A stretch of 64,000 nt of DNA from Natrinema gelatinilyticum (GTDB lineage: Archaea; Halobacteriota; Halobacteria; Halobacteriales; Natrialbaceae). The stretch is from assembly GCF_024266705.1 (NCBI RefSeq), contig NZ_CP100756.1, positions 1,984,001-2,048,000 on the forward strand, in the 5' to 3' direction. Numbering within the stretch: the first letter of the stretch is position 1; each line of letters begins with the position of its first letter. Made by a program: the position numbers and the translations under genes. Positions 1 through 6,300 of the stretch are shown piece by piece. The notes beneath the pieces are model-generated. The model had not been told where the DNA came from, ran no database searches, and worked only from the letters and a program-made list of their open reading frames with translations.

Positions 1-57
1 CGGCTTCGCCCTTCTAACCCGTGATATCAGCCGATTGGATCGCTATTCAACACGGCA
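1..57 (-). mobile_element. End of an IS5-family element cut by the window edge
   Basis: The first 57 bases are the exact reverse complement of positions 43226-43282, the left end of the IS5-family element described there. The element therefore continues to the left of the window in the opposite orientation, and its outermost base is position 57. If it makes the same 8-base duplication as the other copy, the copy of the target site on this side is 58-65. The element lies in the 3' end of the tnpB gene. Confidence 0.85.
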
Positions 58-1265
58 GCAGATACGGGAACTGTATCCACAGCGGTCGCAGTCTCCACAG
101 ACGTTGCTTCGGAGTGAACCACTCCTAGGTTCTCCAGACCACGCGACTGGATATTCAACGCCGCGTTCCAATCCCTCTCCAACTCGAACCCACACGACGG
201 GCAGGAATGTTCCCGAACCCACACCGGTTTCGCCGTCTCCACGCCACACGATGCACACTCTTTCGTCGTGCCATTCGGTTCGACTTCGATAACGTGACAC
301 TCGTTCTTCCGACCGTGATGTTTCAGAATCGTAATGAAGTTTCGCCAGCCGACTTCGGCCTTGTTCCGAGCGTTGCCACTGGCTTCGAGCATCGACTTCA
401 CGTTCAAATCCTCAACGAACACTGCCTCGTACTCGGTCGTGTAATAGTGTGCGAGCTTGTGTTTATAATCTCGCTTCTTGTTCGACATGCGAGCATGGAC
501 CGTCGCGACTCGCCGCCGTTGCGTCTCCCAGTTGTTCGACTCGTATTGCTTGCGAGAAAGAGCGTGTTGCTCACGTTCGAGGCGTTTTCGCTCGTCGGAG
601 AAGTCAAGACGTCCGACGGAGCGTCCGTCCGAATCCTGGACGAAGGTGAGAACGCCGAGGTCGATCCCAACCGTGTCTTCCGGCTCAATGTCCGCTGGGT
701 CTGGTTTCTCTGGCGTGTCGGTGCTGATGCAGAACGAGGCGTACCACGCTCCTGTGGGTTCTTTCTTCACCGTGACTTCCTTGATAGCATCGTGGTCGGG
801 AAGGTCGCGGTGAAGGCGGAGTGGGATTTCGATGGTTTCACCACGAACTTTTGTGAGTCGGAGTCTCGCTCGGTCTCGCGGGCCACTCTTCGTGTCGAGT
901 TCGAAGCCCGATTGCCGGTACGTGAAACTCCGATACTCACGCGGTGACTTCCAGTTCAACGAGCCAACATCGTAGCCCTTGGCTTTGAGTGTGCCAAGGT
1001 TGTTGATGTTGGTGCGGATACGCTCGACAGCTTTCTGCAAGACGGTGGAGTAGACCTGTTTGAGGTCAGTCCACTGTTGTTTGAGTTCTGGCAGTTCATC
1101 TCGGACGTGCCAGACACGCTGTCGAAGCGTCCCCTCGTCTTCTGGTATCTTGTTGAATTCGTGGAGGGCGTGGTTGTAGAGTTGTCGCACGGTGTCACGA
1201 GTCCAGTCGAGACTCTCCCGTTGGGTGGTGGTGGGAAAGAGACGGTATCGTGGACTGTACTCCAT
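27..1265 (-). CDS. tnpB: TnpB (IS1341-type, IS200/IS605 family), C-terminus replaced by IS5 sequence
   Basis: This 412-residue protein is a TnpB, the RNA-guided RuvC nuclease of IS200/IS605 elements. The RuvC residues are visible as D202 (GIDLGV), E285 (VEDL) and D365 (RDWNAALNI). A four-cysteine zinc finger (C337, C340, C355, C358) lies between the last two. No tnpA gene accompanies it, so it is of the IS1341 type. The last ten or so codons and the stop come from the end of an inserted IS5 element. The native C-terminus and the right end of the element, which encodes the omega-RNA in this family, have therefore been separated from the gene. The catalytic core is intact, so a protein could still be made, but its own guide RNA would probably be lost or disrupted. 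Confidence 0.9.
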   Translation of the reverse strand: MEYSPRYRLFPTTTQRESLDWTRDTVRQLYNHALHEFNKIPEDEGTLRQRVWHVRDELPELKQQWTDLKQVYSTVLQKAVERIRTNINNLGTLKAKGYDVGSLNWKSPREYRSFTYRQSGFELDTKSGPRDRARLRLTKVRGETIEIPLRLHRDLPDHDAIKEVTVKKEPTGAWYASFCISTDTPEKPDPADIEPEDTVGIDLGVLTFVQDSDGRSVGRLDFSDERKRLEREQHALSRKQYESNNWETQRRRVATVHARMSNKKRDYKHKLAHYYTTEYEAVFVEDLNVKSMLEASGNARNKAEVGWRNFITILKHHGRKNECHVIEVEPNGTTKECASCGVETAKPVWVREHSCPSCGFELERDWNAALNIQSRGLENLGVVHSEATSVETATAVDTVPVSAAVLNSDPIG

Positions 1266-1430: not shown

Positions 1431-2174
1431 CTAATCTCCCCCGGTCGATTGGCTCTCCTCGTCGATTGATCCGCCGCCGAGATAGAGTTCAGCCACCTCG
1501 TCGTCGTCGAGCAGGGCTTCGCCGGTGTCCTCGAAACGGTTCTCCCCCATTTCCAGCACGTAGCCCCGGTCGGCGCGGCTGAGCGCCTTGCGAGCGTTCT
1601 GTTCGACCATGAGGATGGCAGTCCCTGACTCGTTGATGGAGTCAATCTTGTCGAACACTTCATCAACGAGGTCAGGGGCGAGTCCTGCTGACGGTTCGTC
1701 AACGAGCAACAGTCCGGGGTCGACCATCAGCGCACGCCCCATTGCGAGCATCTGACGCTGTCCGCCAGAGAGGCTGTCGGCGCGTTGATTCTTACGCTTT
1801 TCGAGAATAGGGAACTGGTCGTACACCTCGTTCAAGGTCTCCTGGGGAACGTGGTCGAGGATGTACGCCCCCATTTCGAGGTTCTCCTTTACCGTGAGGT
1901 TCGGGAAGACGTTCTCGTTCTGCGGGACGTACGCCATCCCCTTGCGCGTAATTTCGTCGGGACGGTTGTCAGTGATGTTTTGCCCGTCGTACGTGACGGC
2001 GCCGTCCCAGCACGGGATAAGACCGAAAATAGCCTTCATCGCCGTGGATTTGCCGGCGCCGTTCGGCCCGATGATGCAGACGATTTCGTTCGAGTTGACG
2101 TCGATCGAGACGCCATGCAGTATCTCGGCGTCGCCATATCCGCTGACGATATCAGCGGCTTCGAGTAGTGTCAT
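1431..2174 (-). CDS. livF: ABC transporter ATPase, LivF type
   Basis: This is the second ATPase (247 residues, normal for the family) of a branched-chain amino acid or amide type ABC importer. Visible motifs are Walker A GPNGAGKS near residue 36, the signature LSGGQ near 139, Walker B LLLVDEP near 159 and the H-loop-position motif VEQN. It is the last gene of the minus-strand unit livH-livM-livG-livF, separated from livG by three bases. It acts at the inner membrane face together with LivG. Members of this family carry branched-chain amino acids, urea or short amides, and the sequence alone does not say which. Confidence 0.9.
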   Translation of the reverse strand: MTLLEAADIVSGYGDAEILHGVSIDVNSNEIVCIIGPNGAGKSTAMKAIFGLIPCWDGAVTYDGQNITDNRPDEITRKGMAYVPQNENVFPNLTVKENLEMGAYILDHVPQETLNEVYDQFPILEKRKNQRADSLSGGQRQMLAMGRALMVDPGLLLVDEPSAGLAPDLVDEVFDKIDSINESGTAILMVEQNARKALSRADRGYVLEMGENRFEDTGEALLDDDEVAELYLGGGSIDEESQSTGGD

Positions 2175-2177
2175 CCG

Positions 2178-3137
2178 TCAGCCCCCCAGGTACGCGTCGA
2201 TAACGCGTTTGTCTGACTGCACTTCGCTCGGTACCCCTTCCATTAATTTCTTGCCTTCGCTCATGACGATGATCGTGTCTGAAAGATTCATAATTACTTC
2301 CATGTCGTGTTCGACGATGAGAAACGTGTACCCGTCGGCCCTGAGGTCGCGGATACGTTCGAGGAGTTTCCGGGTCAGTGTTGGATTGACGCCGGCGACG
2401 GGTTCGTCGAGCAGGATGAGATCGGGCTCCATCATAAGTACGCGACCTAGCTCGACAAGTTTACGCTGTCCACCGCTCAAGTTCCCCGCCTCCTCGTTTG
2501 CGAGGTGATCGATTTCAAGGAACTCTAGCATCTGGTAGGCCTCTTGCTGGAGTTCTGCTTCCTCCTCAGCAACGGCTCCTTGTCTGAACCAGGCGTTCAG
2601 GAGGTTCTCGCCCGACTGTCCTTTCTTTGCAAGCATCATGTTCTCGAGGACGGTCATCCCCTTCAACTCGCGAGTAATCTGGAACGTCCGAACCAGTCCC
2701 TCGTTCGCCAATCGAAACGGGCGAGTATGGTAGTACCCGGCGGTCTCCTTGTATCGCTCCTGGCCGGCGTAGACGGCAGCACCGACACCGGCGCCGAGGA
2801 TGGTCGCACCGGCAAGCATCGGGGATGTCAGCCCGTAGTAGGCGGCAGCCGACAGGGCGAATCCACCGAACGTCGCCCCCGAAGCACCGTACCAGATGCC
2901 CTTCTCCTCGCGACTCGGGCGCATTATCTGTTGCGTGTCGGTGCCTCGGTACTTGATGGCGCCGCTGTCAGGTTCGTAGAACCCGCTGATAAGGTTGAAC
3001 GTCGTCGTCTTGCCGGCACCGTTCGGGCCGATGAGCCCGGTGACAGTTCCCTGGTCGACGCTGAACGATGCTCCGTCGACGGCGATGATGCCGCCGAACG
3101 ACTTGTATAGGTCCTCGACTTCTAGTAGTGAGGTCAT
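2178..3137 (-). CDS. livG: ABC transporter ATPase, LivG type, with a hydrophobic insert
   Basis: This ATPase has 319 residues, against about 255 in typical LivG. The core is complete: Walker A GPNGAGKT (37-44), the Q-loop in RTFQ (150-153), signature LSGGQ (220-224), Walker B ILLDEP with E245, and H277. Between Walker A and the Q-loop, residues about 74-138 form an insert rich in Gly and Ala. It contains two hydrophobic stretches (about 84-101 and 106-124) that look like a membrane hairpin. The start overlaps the livM stop (ATGA), so the two are translationally coupled. A hydrophobic hairpin inside an ABC nucleotide-binding domain is unusual. It may anchor the ATPase to the enlarged permeases. 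Confidence 0.9.
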   Translation of the reverse strand: MTSLLEVEDLYKSFGGIIAVDGASFSVDQGTVTGLIGPNGAGKTTTFNLISGFYEPDSGAIKYRGTDTQQIMRPSREEKGIWYGASGATFGGFALSAAAYYGLTSPMLAGATILGAGVGAAVYAGQERYKETAGYYHTRPFRLANEGLVRTFQITRELKGMTVLENMMLAKKGQSGENLLNAWFRQGAVAEEEAELQQEAYQMLEFLEIDHLANEEAGNLSGGQRKLVELGRVLMMEPDLILLDEPVAGVNPTLTRKLLERIRDLRADGYTFLIVEHDMEVIMNLSDTIIVMSEGKKLMEGVPSEVQSDKRVIDAYLGG

Positions 3138-4831
3138 TCTGAATCCACCTCGATTGTCCGGTGTTTCTCACCCCAGATGCCTTCGGGGCGATAGTATAGG
3201 ATGACGATGAGGAGCGCACCGATGATGACCAACCGAAGAGCCTGAATTGAGGATCCGGCAGCCGTCGGGAAGAACTCCGCAAGGTCGGACGTCATCCGAG
3301 AGAAGGCCCAGAAGATGACCGCCCCGAGAATCGCTCCTCGGTTGTTTGCTGTGCCGCCGATGATGACCATCAACAGGACGAAGAACGTTACATCGATGCG
3401 GAAGATGGACCACGTCAGCGACTGGAACTGGATAGCGGTGAGACCGCCCGCAAACCCTGCGATAGCGCTTCCGACGGCCATCCCCTGCACCTTGTAGGTG
3501 AATGTGTTCTTGCCGAGTGCTGTGGCGACGTCCTCGTCTTCACGGATGGCCTTCAGGACGCGGCCGAATGGCGAATTCACCGTCGTCTCCGAGAGATAGT
3601 ACATCAGGCCAAGCGACGTGAACACCATCACGAATAGGAAGCGGTCGTACTCGATGCCGATGCCGAGGTTCGGGTCGAACTGCAGCAGCCAGATTAGGTT
3701 CTGGAACGTGTTGAGGAACACCGTACTTACACCGCCGGACTGTATCGACGTGACGAGAGACACCACGAAATAGCGGACGAGGAACAGCCAGACAGCACCG
3801 ATGCCGACGATGGAGACCAGGTCAACGTTATCCGACCCGTAGTGGTTCCAGTTCCGACTGAGGTACACGAGTCCGTAGATGTACACCGCGAGGAACACAA
3901 CAGTCATGAGCATGCCGATGGCACTGGTCGTGTCGTTCTGGTTGTTTCCGAGGACGACGAGCGGGGCGAGGGTGGCGAAGAATAGTGTCGTCAACCCAAG
4001 CCCGTAGAGCGCGTCGAACGCGGTCGCCTTGGAAAAGTAGCGCCGAATACGGACATACGCGTACGCCCACGTGAATAATGAGAACGCACCGACGAACACG
4101 AGCGCGACCAATTCGTTGGATACGTCGGGTGTCACAAGCGTCACCACCGTCGCGATGCCGCCAACGAGGAGGCTGGCGACGAGTACATCGAATGTATTGA
4201 CATCCTCAGCGCCGGAGCGGGCGCGCCGGCCGAAGAGGTAGCCCACGCCGAGCGTGGTCAGTGCGAAAACGCCGTGAACGACTGCTTCTCGACCGCTGTC
4301 GACTGCCGTGATTTCTGACAGACGAGCGAGCGCGTATGTTGCAGCCATCCAGAATAGCACCACTAAGACGCCAAACACGATCGCGCTCCCCAGTGTATCA
4401 CCGGGAACCGGGAACAGACTGTTCAAGGGGCGCTCGAATCCGGCGAGCGCACGCGGTCCGTTGGCCAGCCAGCGCTCAGATCGGAACAGTTGCTGTACGA
4501 TAAACGCCATCCCGAGCAGCGTGATGGCGAGGTAATCCTCACGGAGACGGATTGCTGGAAGGGAGACGAGTGCTCCTATTGCCCCCGCGAACAACGATGC
4601 AAGAAGAATTGCGACGACCCACGGCAAACCGAGGCCGAGGATATATTGTTGTCCGGGCGACGATGGCGGCAACACCAACAGGGCGGTCATGTACCCGCCG
4701 AGCAGGTAGAACGCCACGTGCCCGATTTCGAGCAATCCGGTGTACCCGAACTTAATGTTCATCCCCACTGCGAGGATGCCGAAGATACCGACTGAGATGC
4801 CGAACGAAACGAGGCTTCCCGAAATCGCCAT
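3134..4831 (-). CDS. livM: ABC transporter permease, LivM type, enlarged
   Basis: This permease has 565 residues, while typical LivM has about 320-430. The N-terminal part (GMNIKFGYTGLLEIGH) and the C-terminal part (NSPFGRVLKAIREDE, then VIIGGTANNRGAILGA and YYRPEGIWG) are the usual conserved LivM segments. Between about residues 150 and 350 lies extra sequence with roughly five or six additional hydrophobic segments and short charged loops. The gene starts just after the livH stop and overlaps livG by four bases. It forms half of the membrane channel with LivH. The size difference is not a fusion with a recognisable domain; it looks like an inserted membrane module. Confidence 0.88.
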   Translation of the reverse strand: MAISGSLVSFGISVGIFGILAVGMNIKFGYTGLLEIGHVAFYLLGGYMTALLVLPPSSPGQQYILGLGLPWVVAILLASLFAGAIGALVSLPAIRLREDYLAITLLGMAFIVQQLFRSERWLANGPRALAGFERPLNSLFPVPGDTLGSAIVFGVLVVLFWMAATYALARLSEITAVDSGREAVVHGVFALTTLGVGYLFGRRARSGAEDVNTFDVLVASLLVGGIATVVTLVTPDVSNELVALVFVGAFSLFTWAYAYVRIRRYFSKATAFDALYGLGLTTLFFATLAPLVVLGNNQNDTTSAIGMLMTVVFLAVYIYGLVYLSRNWNHYGSDNVDLVSIVGIGAVWLFLVRYFVVSLVTSIQSGGVSTVFLNTFQNLIWLLQFDPNLGIGIEYDRFLFVMVFTSLGLMYYLSETTVNSPFGRVLKAIREDEDVATALGKNTFTYKVQGMAVGSAIAGFAGGLTAIQFQSLTWSIFRIDVTFFVLLMVIIGGTANNRGAILGAVIFWAFSRMTSDLAEFFPTAAGSSIQALRLVIIGALLIVILYYRPEGIWGEKHRTIEVDSE

Positions 4832-4833
4832 GG

Positions 4834-6300
4834 TTAGCTTCCCCCCACGATGCCTTCAGGCTTGACGAGCAGTACCATGAACAGGACGACGAACGCGATG
4901 GGGATGCGGTAGTTATTCCCGACCGGCAGAATCGTGAATCCGATGTCCATCGCTAGTCCGACGACAAAACTGCCAATGATGACGCCGTAGATGGAACGGA
5001 TTCCCCCGAGGATGACTCCTGCGAACATCGGCAACAACAGGAAAAAGCCGATGTTGACTTGCACGCGCGACAGCGTTAGACCGAGCAGGACGCCCGCGAT
5101 GCCCGCGAACACACCTGCGATAATCCACGTCGCCATCATCACGCGGTCGGTGTTGATACCGGTAACCTGTGCGAGGTTCAGATTACCCGATGACGCTCGC
5201 ATCGCGGTTCCGAGCTTCGTCTCCTGTAACAGGACATGAAGCGACGCCATCATCGCAAGCGCGATGAGGATGATGAGCATCTTCAACGGGAAGATGCGCA
5301 ATCGGGTCGCGTAGATGAAGCCGGCGGCGGTCTGGGGAACGGTTCGACTCCCGGCAAGCAGCCACCCGAAGACGGCCAGCGAGACGACGAACATGATGGC
5401 ACCCGTGAGCTTCGGGCCGATCGTTTGAGCTTCCGTGTAGTCGGCCATACGCTTGCGGTAGACGTACGCGGCGACCGTGAGACCAGTAACCAGTAGCAAC
5501 AGTACCACAACGAGCGGCCACGGATAGCCAAGGGTGAACACAGGTACGCTGTTGAGACCCTCCTGCGAGGTCGGTCCAGAATCACGGAACTGCAGGACGA
5601 GGCCCGACGCCGTGACATAGAAATCGAGGAACTTCGCGGCAGTCACGTATACTGTCGTCCCGAAGACATCCGAAACCGGAGGCAGCTCAAAGCTTCGCGA
5701 GCGTCCGCCGTAGATGGCTTGTGTTCCGAACCTGAGGATGAACGAGACGCCGAGCGAGACGATAAGCATCGTAGCGAGTTCGGCATCAGTCTCGCGGAAC
5801 TTCCGGTACACTATTTTCTCGGTCAGCGGCGCGATAACACCGACAAGGACGGCCGCCAGCAAAATCCCTGCCCAGATCGACGGGACGCCAAATGCGATGA
5901 CAGCCCCAACGACCACGGCCAGTAGGAGATGTACCACGAACGCGACGCTTGTAGGCGGTCGTCTCGGCCACCACGAACCGCGTAACGCATCTCGCCCGTC
6001 GAGGAGGTACAGTATCGCGAGTACTCCGAGTCCGCCCAGCAGAAATAGCGCGACGAACCCTCCGGAACTGACGGAACGCGCACCGGTCGTCCACTCCTGG
6101 AACAGCGGCACGGTGCCCGGTTTGTTCACGAACAGCGCGATGAACGCCCCGATCATGAGTAACTCACCGTGTGCAAAGTTAGGAACTTCTGCAATACTGT
6201 ACACCAGTGCTAACCCGATTGCACCCATCGCGATAATACTGCCTGTCACAATACCGGTCAGTACTGCGTTAGGTATGCCAGTAGTAGGTGGAACTACCAT
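4834..6300 (-). CDS. livH: ABC transporter permease, LivH type, enlarged
   Basis: With the start at 6300 the protein has 488 residues; typical LivH has about 290. The start is chosen because a strong ribosome binding site lies five bases upstream and because the conserved LivH beginning (TGSIIAMGAIGLALVYS, then FAHGELLM) follows at once. The open frame upstream to 6360 adds 20 unlikely residues. Extra hydrophobic segments occur after the first helices (about residues 70-130) and in the middle (about 230-330), before the conserved ALLQETKLGTAMRA-like region and the closing LVKPEGI. It is the first gene of the operon. No periplasmic binding protein gene is next to it in this window. Confidence 0.88.
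   Translation of the reverse strand: MVVPPTTGIPNAVLTGIVTGSIIAMGAIGLALVYSIAEVPNFAHGELLMIGAFIALFVNKPGTVPLFQEWTTGARSVSSGGFVALFLLGGLGVLAILYLLDGRDALRGSWWPRRPPTSVAFVVHLLLAVVVGAVIAFGVPSIWAGILLAAVLVGVIAPLTEKIVYRKFRETDAELATMLIVSLGVSFILRFGTQAIYGGRSRSFELPPVSDVFGTTVYVTAAKFLDFYVTASGLVLQFRDSGPTSQEGLNSVPVFTLGYPWPLVVVLLLLVTGLTVAAYVYRKRMADYTEAQTIGPKLTGAIMFVVSLAVFGWLLAGSRTVPQTAAGFIYATRLRIFPLKMLIILIALAMMASLHVLLQETKLGTAMRASSGNLNLAQVTGINTDRVMMATWIIAGVFAGIAGVLLGLTLSRVQVNIGFFLLLPMFAGVILGGIRSIYGVIIGSFVVGLAMDIGFTILPVGNNYRIPIAFVVLFMVLLVKPEGIVGGS

Follow-up and report, generated by a model that had tools for sequence, protein, structure and literature searches.

In ABC importers, the ATPase subunits are regarded as soluble proteins that meet their permeases through coupling helices. 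MJ1267 (PDB 1gaj/1g6h), a LivG-type branched-chain amino acid ABC ATPase, is the best fold match of the protein described here and has the fold and all ATPase motifs in common with it. The LivG/MJ1267 system also shares with our locus the BCA_ABC_TP_C motif, the LivHMGF operon and a Peripla_BP_6 binding protein. MJ1267 has no insert, whereas the LivG described here does. In the open-access literature, from which most subscription journals are absent, we found no cryo-EM structure of LivFGHM and no earlier description of an insert-bearing LivG.

A second reference point is LptB, the homologous ATPase of the LPS exporter, which locates the permease-contact groove. LptB residues L72 and H73 flank this groove, and a photo-crosslinker placed at either yields several UV-dependent crosslinks, in contrast to D64 and R77, which face the cytoplasm and yield none (PMC5082905); the portion of that text relied on here does not name the crosslinked partners. 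LptB differs from our protein in being an exporter subunit that works with other permeases and in having no insert.

The locus lies in a window of 64,000 nucleotides, the whole stretch of Natrinema gelatinilyticum DNA that was analysed. Judged by sequence, it encodes a LivG-type ABC transporter with an unusual insert, probably of the amino-acid type by class. The LivG-type importer itself is known; what appears to be new is a conserved, predicted two-helix hairpin inserted into the LivG-type ATPase of one halobacterial lineage.

Gene and catalytic core

The livG-type gene (2178..3137, minus strand) is an open reading frame of 319 codons. Profile searches place PF00005 in it with 103 bits and the C-terminal BCA_ABC_TP_C family (PF12399) with 31.7 bits, above the curated cut-off of 25.5. 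The NCBIfam LivG equivalog NF008449 is its best family, in a match that is split around the insert and scores 234 bits against a curated cut-off of 362, and for this reason we file the protein as LivG-type and not as a certified LivG equivalog.

The sequence-only reading had held that all catalytic motifs are intact, and this was borne out. Walker A (GPNGAGKT, residues 37-44; 3006..3029), the Q-loop Gln153 (2679..2681), the ABC signature LSGGQ (residues 220-224; 2466..2480), Walker B (LILLDE, residues 240-245; 2403..2420) and the H-loop His277 (2307..2309) are all present on the minus strand. In an alignment of 18 insert-bearing LivG orthologues, Walker A, Gln153, the signature and His277 are invariant, as are L242, L243, D244 and E245 of Walker B.

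Extent, conservation and distribution of the insert

Alignment against 25 halobacterial LivGs that have no insert, together with the gap in MJ1267, puts the insert at residues 70-138 (2724..2930, minus strand). MJ1267 (1g6h, 257 aa) aligns with residues 4-67 and 136-318 only. The spacing from Walker A to the RTFQ motif is 113 here and usually 46 in bacterial LivGs among the matches listed, which came from a contig scan with full-length alignment and the generic motifs IGPNGAGK and DEPVAGVN and are mostly insert-free, not a census. The roughly 65 additional residues first noticed at 74-138, between Walker A and the Q-loop, are thus real and slightly more numerous (about 69, at about 70-138).

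The insert is less conserved than the rest of the protein, with a mean pairwise identity of 44% among insert-bearing LivGs against 73% for the core. A W/Gly/Ala/Tyr pattern runs through the halobacterial inserts. The 18-sequence alignment has M72, P74, E78, W82, G102, G119 and Y123 as invariant positions, with conservation of at least 90% at A85, G91 and G115. Over 12 pairs, dN/dS is 0-0.28 for the insert and 0.04-0.20 for the core; since the insert values are well below 1, purifying selection acts on the insert, as a rule less strongly than on the core. With the insert as query, Pfam and PDB gave no credible match, and viral contigs scanned with the insert region gave no match.

A full-length insert-bearing match is present in 36 of 391 sampled halobacterial genomes, this one included, at 58-86% identity (the query itself aside) and E < 1e-117. 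The next best halobacterial matches cover only residues ~138-319. The insert is therefore not a peculiarity of one genome, and its spread, the purifying selection and the invariant residues together agree with the expectation that it would be conserved. No other listed genome of the same genus has an insert-bearing LivG, and the nearest relative of our protein, at 86% identity, belongs to another family (genome G277). This patchy spread, with the nearest relative in a different family, suggests horizontal transfer of the insert-bearing LivG. A phylum sample searched with the insert gave matches in 9 of 393 genomes, all of them Halobacteria.

In a tree built with the insert columns removed, the usual insert-free halobacterial LivGs form their own group (99/93), apart from the insert-bearing proteins. 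The fork with the latter has weak support (89/47) and includes two actinobacterial rows as well. On this tree a single origin of the insert-bearing LivG within Halobacteria is likely, though not proven.

Charge, hydrophobicity and predicted fold

Residues 80-126 form a run of 47 residues free of D, E, K and R. Such runs reach 22-50 residues in the insert-bearing orthologues (44-50 in 31 of the 36), against 13-22 in insert-free LivGs and 11-20 in LivFs. On hydrophobicity scales that serve for comparison only, GES is 1.61 for residues 81-99 and 1.71 for residues 107-125; Kyte-Doolittle over 19 residues is 0.98 and 1.54 for the two stretches, and 0.9-1.5 in the halobacterial examples shown, below the usual 1.6; and the summed Hessa scale has a median of 4.3 for insert segments against 1.25 for the permease helices of the operon. 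Two TM-like segments (GES at least 1.0, on the same comparative footing) occur in 31 of 36 insert-bearing LivGs, while 23 of 25 insert-free ones have none. The two Gly/Ala-rich stretches described from the sequence are therefore there, but their hydrophobicity is only moderate. For Gly/Ala-rich helices of such marginal hydrophobicity, insertion into the membrane is plausible and no more than that.

AlphaFold2 models the core with confidence and the insert as a helical hairpin with pLDDT ~58-64 (helices assigned by DSSP), from an alignment that lacked other insert-bearing sequences, so that the model of the insert draws in essence on a single sequence. Predicted helix 1 spans residues 76-100 (2838..2912, minus strand; hydrophobic part ~81-103). 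Predicted helix 2 spans residues 106-145 (2703..2822, minus strand; hydrophobic part ~106-125); beyond the hydrophobic part it continues as a polar stalk that joins the native helix preceding the Q-loop. A disordered loop would have spoken against the original idea; two helices predicted at a pLDDT of ~60 instead lend modest support to the hairpin. A helical-moment test found no significant periodicity of small residues in the insert (p 0.58 and 0.77), and positive-inside flanks were not clear, as the C-terminal stalk has a mean net charge of +1.3, yet 27% of core windows reach +1.

Insertion site and inserts in other bacteria

With the LptB numbering verified against E. coli b3201, the insert falls between LptB S68 and P71, directly before L72 and H73, in an alignment made by eye that sets LptB D-I-S-L-L-P against the D-I-T-G-x-P of insert-free halobacterial LivGs. 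The register is uncertain by a few residues, since automatic alignment places the LptB gap slightly later. By homology to LptB, the insert site would adjoin the permease-contact groove, as the residues that directly follow it include the crosslinking L72 and H73 (PMC5082905). The earlier suggestion that this position faces the permeases gains support from the comparison.

Other bacteria also carry inserts at this position. In a Microthrixaceae MAG (G703), the LivG at L136:1822-3123 (plus strand) has a Walker A-to-RTFQ spacing of 168 and about 120 extra residues at the site of the halobacterial insert. These comprise four hydrophobic segments with Kyte-Doolittle values of 1.3-2.4 on the same comparative scale. 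AlphaFold2 predicts helices at 80-108, 114-134, 143-164 and 170-194, parts of them at low confidence. It lies beside LivF, an ordinary-length LivM and a LivH that is truncated where the contig ends. Two genomes of the same actinobacterial family encode LivGs with a four-TM insert at 94% and 42% identity in frames of 445-446 aa (G1017, L195, frame from 2707, minus strand; G1012, L194, frame from 3728, plus strand). Frame and motifs are intact in all three proteins, and the class and phylum samples gave no further four-TM LivG insert beyond these three genomes of one family.

The actinobacterial proteins thus resemble the halobacterial LivG in their intact ATPase motifs and in an insert of hydrophobic helices at this position, and differ in the size of the insert, in its four more strongly hydrophobic helices and in the ordinary length of LivM. 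Homology between the two inserts was considered and rejected, as an hhalign comparison was not significant (P 0.033; score 15.6 against 13.2 for the reversed control). Shorter inserts of 24-37 residues that are not TM-like occupy the same loop at L105, L119, L120, L121, L123, L132, L134, L135 and L141, with a spacing of 70-83. In Leclercia, Pseudomonas, Competibacter, Clostridia and Spirochaetales, LivG has an insert of 24-30 aa at the same loop as the halobacterial LivG, but these inserts contain many polar and charged residues and are not TM-like. The site is an insertion hotspot able to hold membrane helices. A four-TM insert at this very site means that the position can carry such helices, and it strengthens the membrane reading of the halobacterial hairpin.

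Operon and permeases

LivG is adjoined in the operon by LivF, LivM and LivH, all on the minus strand. The LivF-type ATPase (1431..2174, 247 aa) has no insert and matches NF008626 best. The LivM-type permease (3134..4831, 565 aa) and the LivH-type permease (4834..6300, 488 aa from an internal ATG, MVVPPT...) both belong to PF02653, with 14 and 13 predicted TM segments against 8 and 9 in short relatives. Aligned with the short LivM of L068 and L070, LivM has extra material at residues 129-181 and 191-392 (3656..4447, minus strand); LivH, aligned with its short relatives, has it at residues 57-131, 209-248 and 263-330 (5311-6132). These extra segments amount to about 255 residues in LivM and about 183 in LivH, and bring added predicted TM helices.

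The Peripla_BP_6 binding protein of the operon lies just outside the window, at L199:5532-6806, immediately to its left in the genome (C1), and is 85% identical to that of G277. A TnpB-like ORF, seen by eye at window positions 27-1265, and a DDE_Tnp_1 transposase gene at L199:7161-7985 both lie between LivF and the binding-protein gene, which for this reason stands apart from the transporter genes here.

Long permeases accompany the insert in 34 of the 36 insert-bearing operons (LivM 558-673 aa, LivH 469-489 aa). The remaining two are contiguous operons (L068:7096-10726 in genome G208; L070:1570-5203 in genome G249) that combine an insert-bearing LivG with minimal permeases (LivM 322 and 321 aa, LivH 298 aa). 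The expectation that the insert always occurs with long permeases therefore fails, and the ordinary-length LivM beside the four-TM LivG of L136 counts against it as well. Since the insert persists beside minimal permeases in L068 and L070, a long permease is not needed for it; because the other 34 operons are related, co-occurrence is weak evidence for contact. As proof of packing, we set it aside.

Discussion

The LivG described here is probably a functional ABC ATPase that has acquired, on the side facing the permeases, a Gly/Ala-rich hairpin of two helices. We put at about 0.6 the probability that this hairpin is embedded in the membrane or the permease, where it would anchor LivG and tune coupling. 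The hairpin form is a structure prediction; membrane embedding, permease contact and an effect on coupling are inferred. Residues 70-80 and 126-138 would serve as short polar stalks, and residues ~81-103 and ~104-125 would form two uncharged helices of about 20 residues with a tight turn between them. Rising out of the coupling-helix groove, the hairpin would embed in, or pack tightly on, the membrane part of LivM/LivH. It may thereby anchor the ATPase to its own permease, and may make the coupling of ATP hydrolysis to transport more rigid or adjust it.

The main rival to a membrane- or permease-embedded hairpin is a peripheral helical arm that stays outside the bilayer, packs against LivF or the cytoplasmic face of the permeases and adds protein-protein contact where ATPase and permease meet. 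The marginal hydrophobicity of the Gly/Ala-rich helices would suit such an arm, as would the charged or polar residue within the second stretch in L068 and L070 and a site at the coupling groove, as placed by comparison with LptB (PMC5082905). We consider it rather unlikely all the same, as an exposed surface would very rarely run for 44-50 residues without a charge in proteins whose core net charge averages -19, and hydropathy clearly marks the bacterial insert at this site as transmembrane.

Improbable, in our estimate, is a regulatory or sensing module that gates the ATPase in response to, for example, membrane state, salt or substrate, and does not act as a mechanical anchor. A place beside the coupling groove is well suited to altering coupling, and the insert-bearing proteins form a paralogous lineage separate from the usual halobacterial LivG, but the Pfam and PDB searches recognised no ligand-binding or regulatory family in the insert, which also shows no conserved metal or nucleotide motif. 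We give very little credence to the idea that a permissive loop simply tolerates an insertion of neutral effect on function. The faster evolution of the insert and the variety of 24-37-residue inserts at this site in other bacteria would fit neutrality; purifying selection, invariant residues and the retention of the insert by all members of the halobacterial lineage that were sampled argue against it.

Taken with the bacterial proteins, an embedded hairpin would point to a broader pattern, for which we see roughly even odds: membrane-spanning helices would have been gained at the coupling-groove loop of LivG-type ATPases at least twice independently, as two helices in Halobacteria and as four in the Microthrixaceae-type family. 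The ATPase would then be integral to the transmembrane domain, and the motor of the importer anchored by its own insert. A hairpin beside the contact site and a separate four-TM version in bacteria offer a natural test of coupling by a membrane-embedded motor, and the short-permease operons L068 and L070 are a ready comparison with the long-permease ones. If the membrane-helix reading is true, these Halobacteria would possess an importer whose motor is anchored in the membrane through its own insert.
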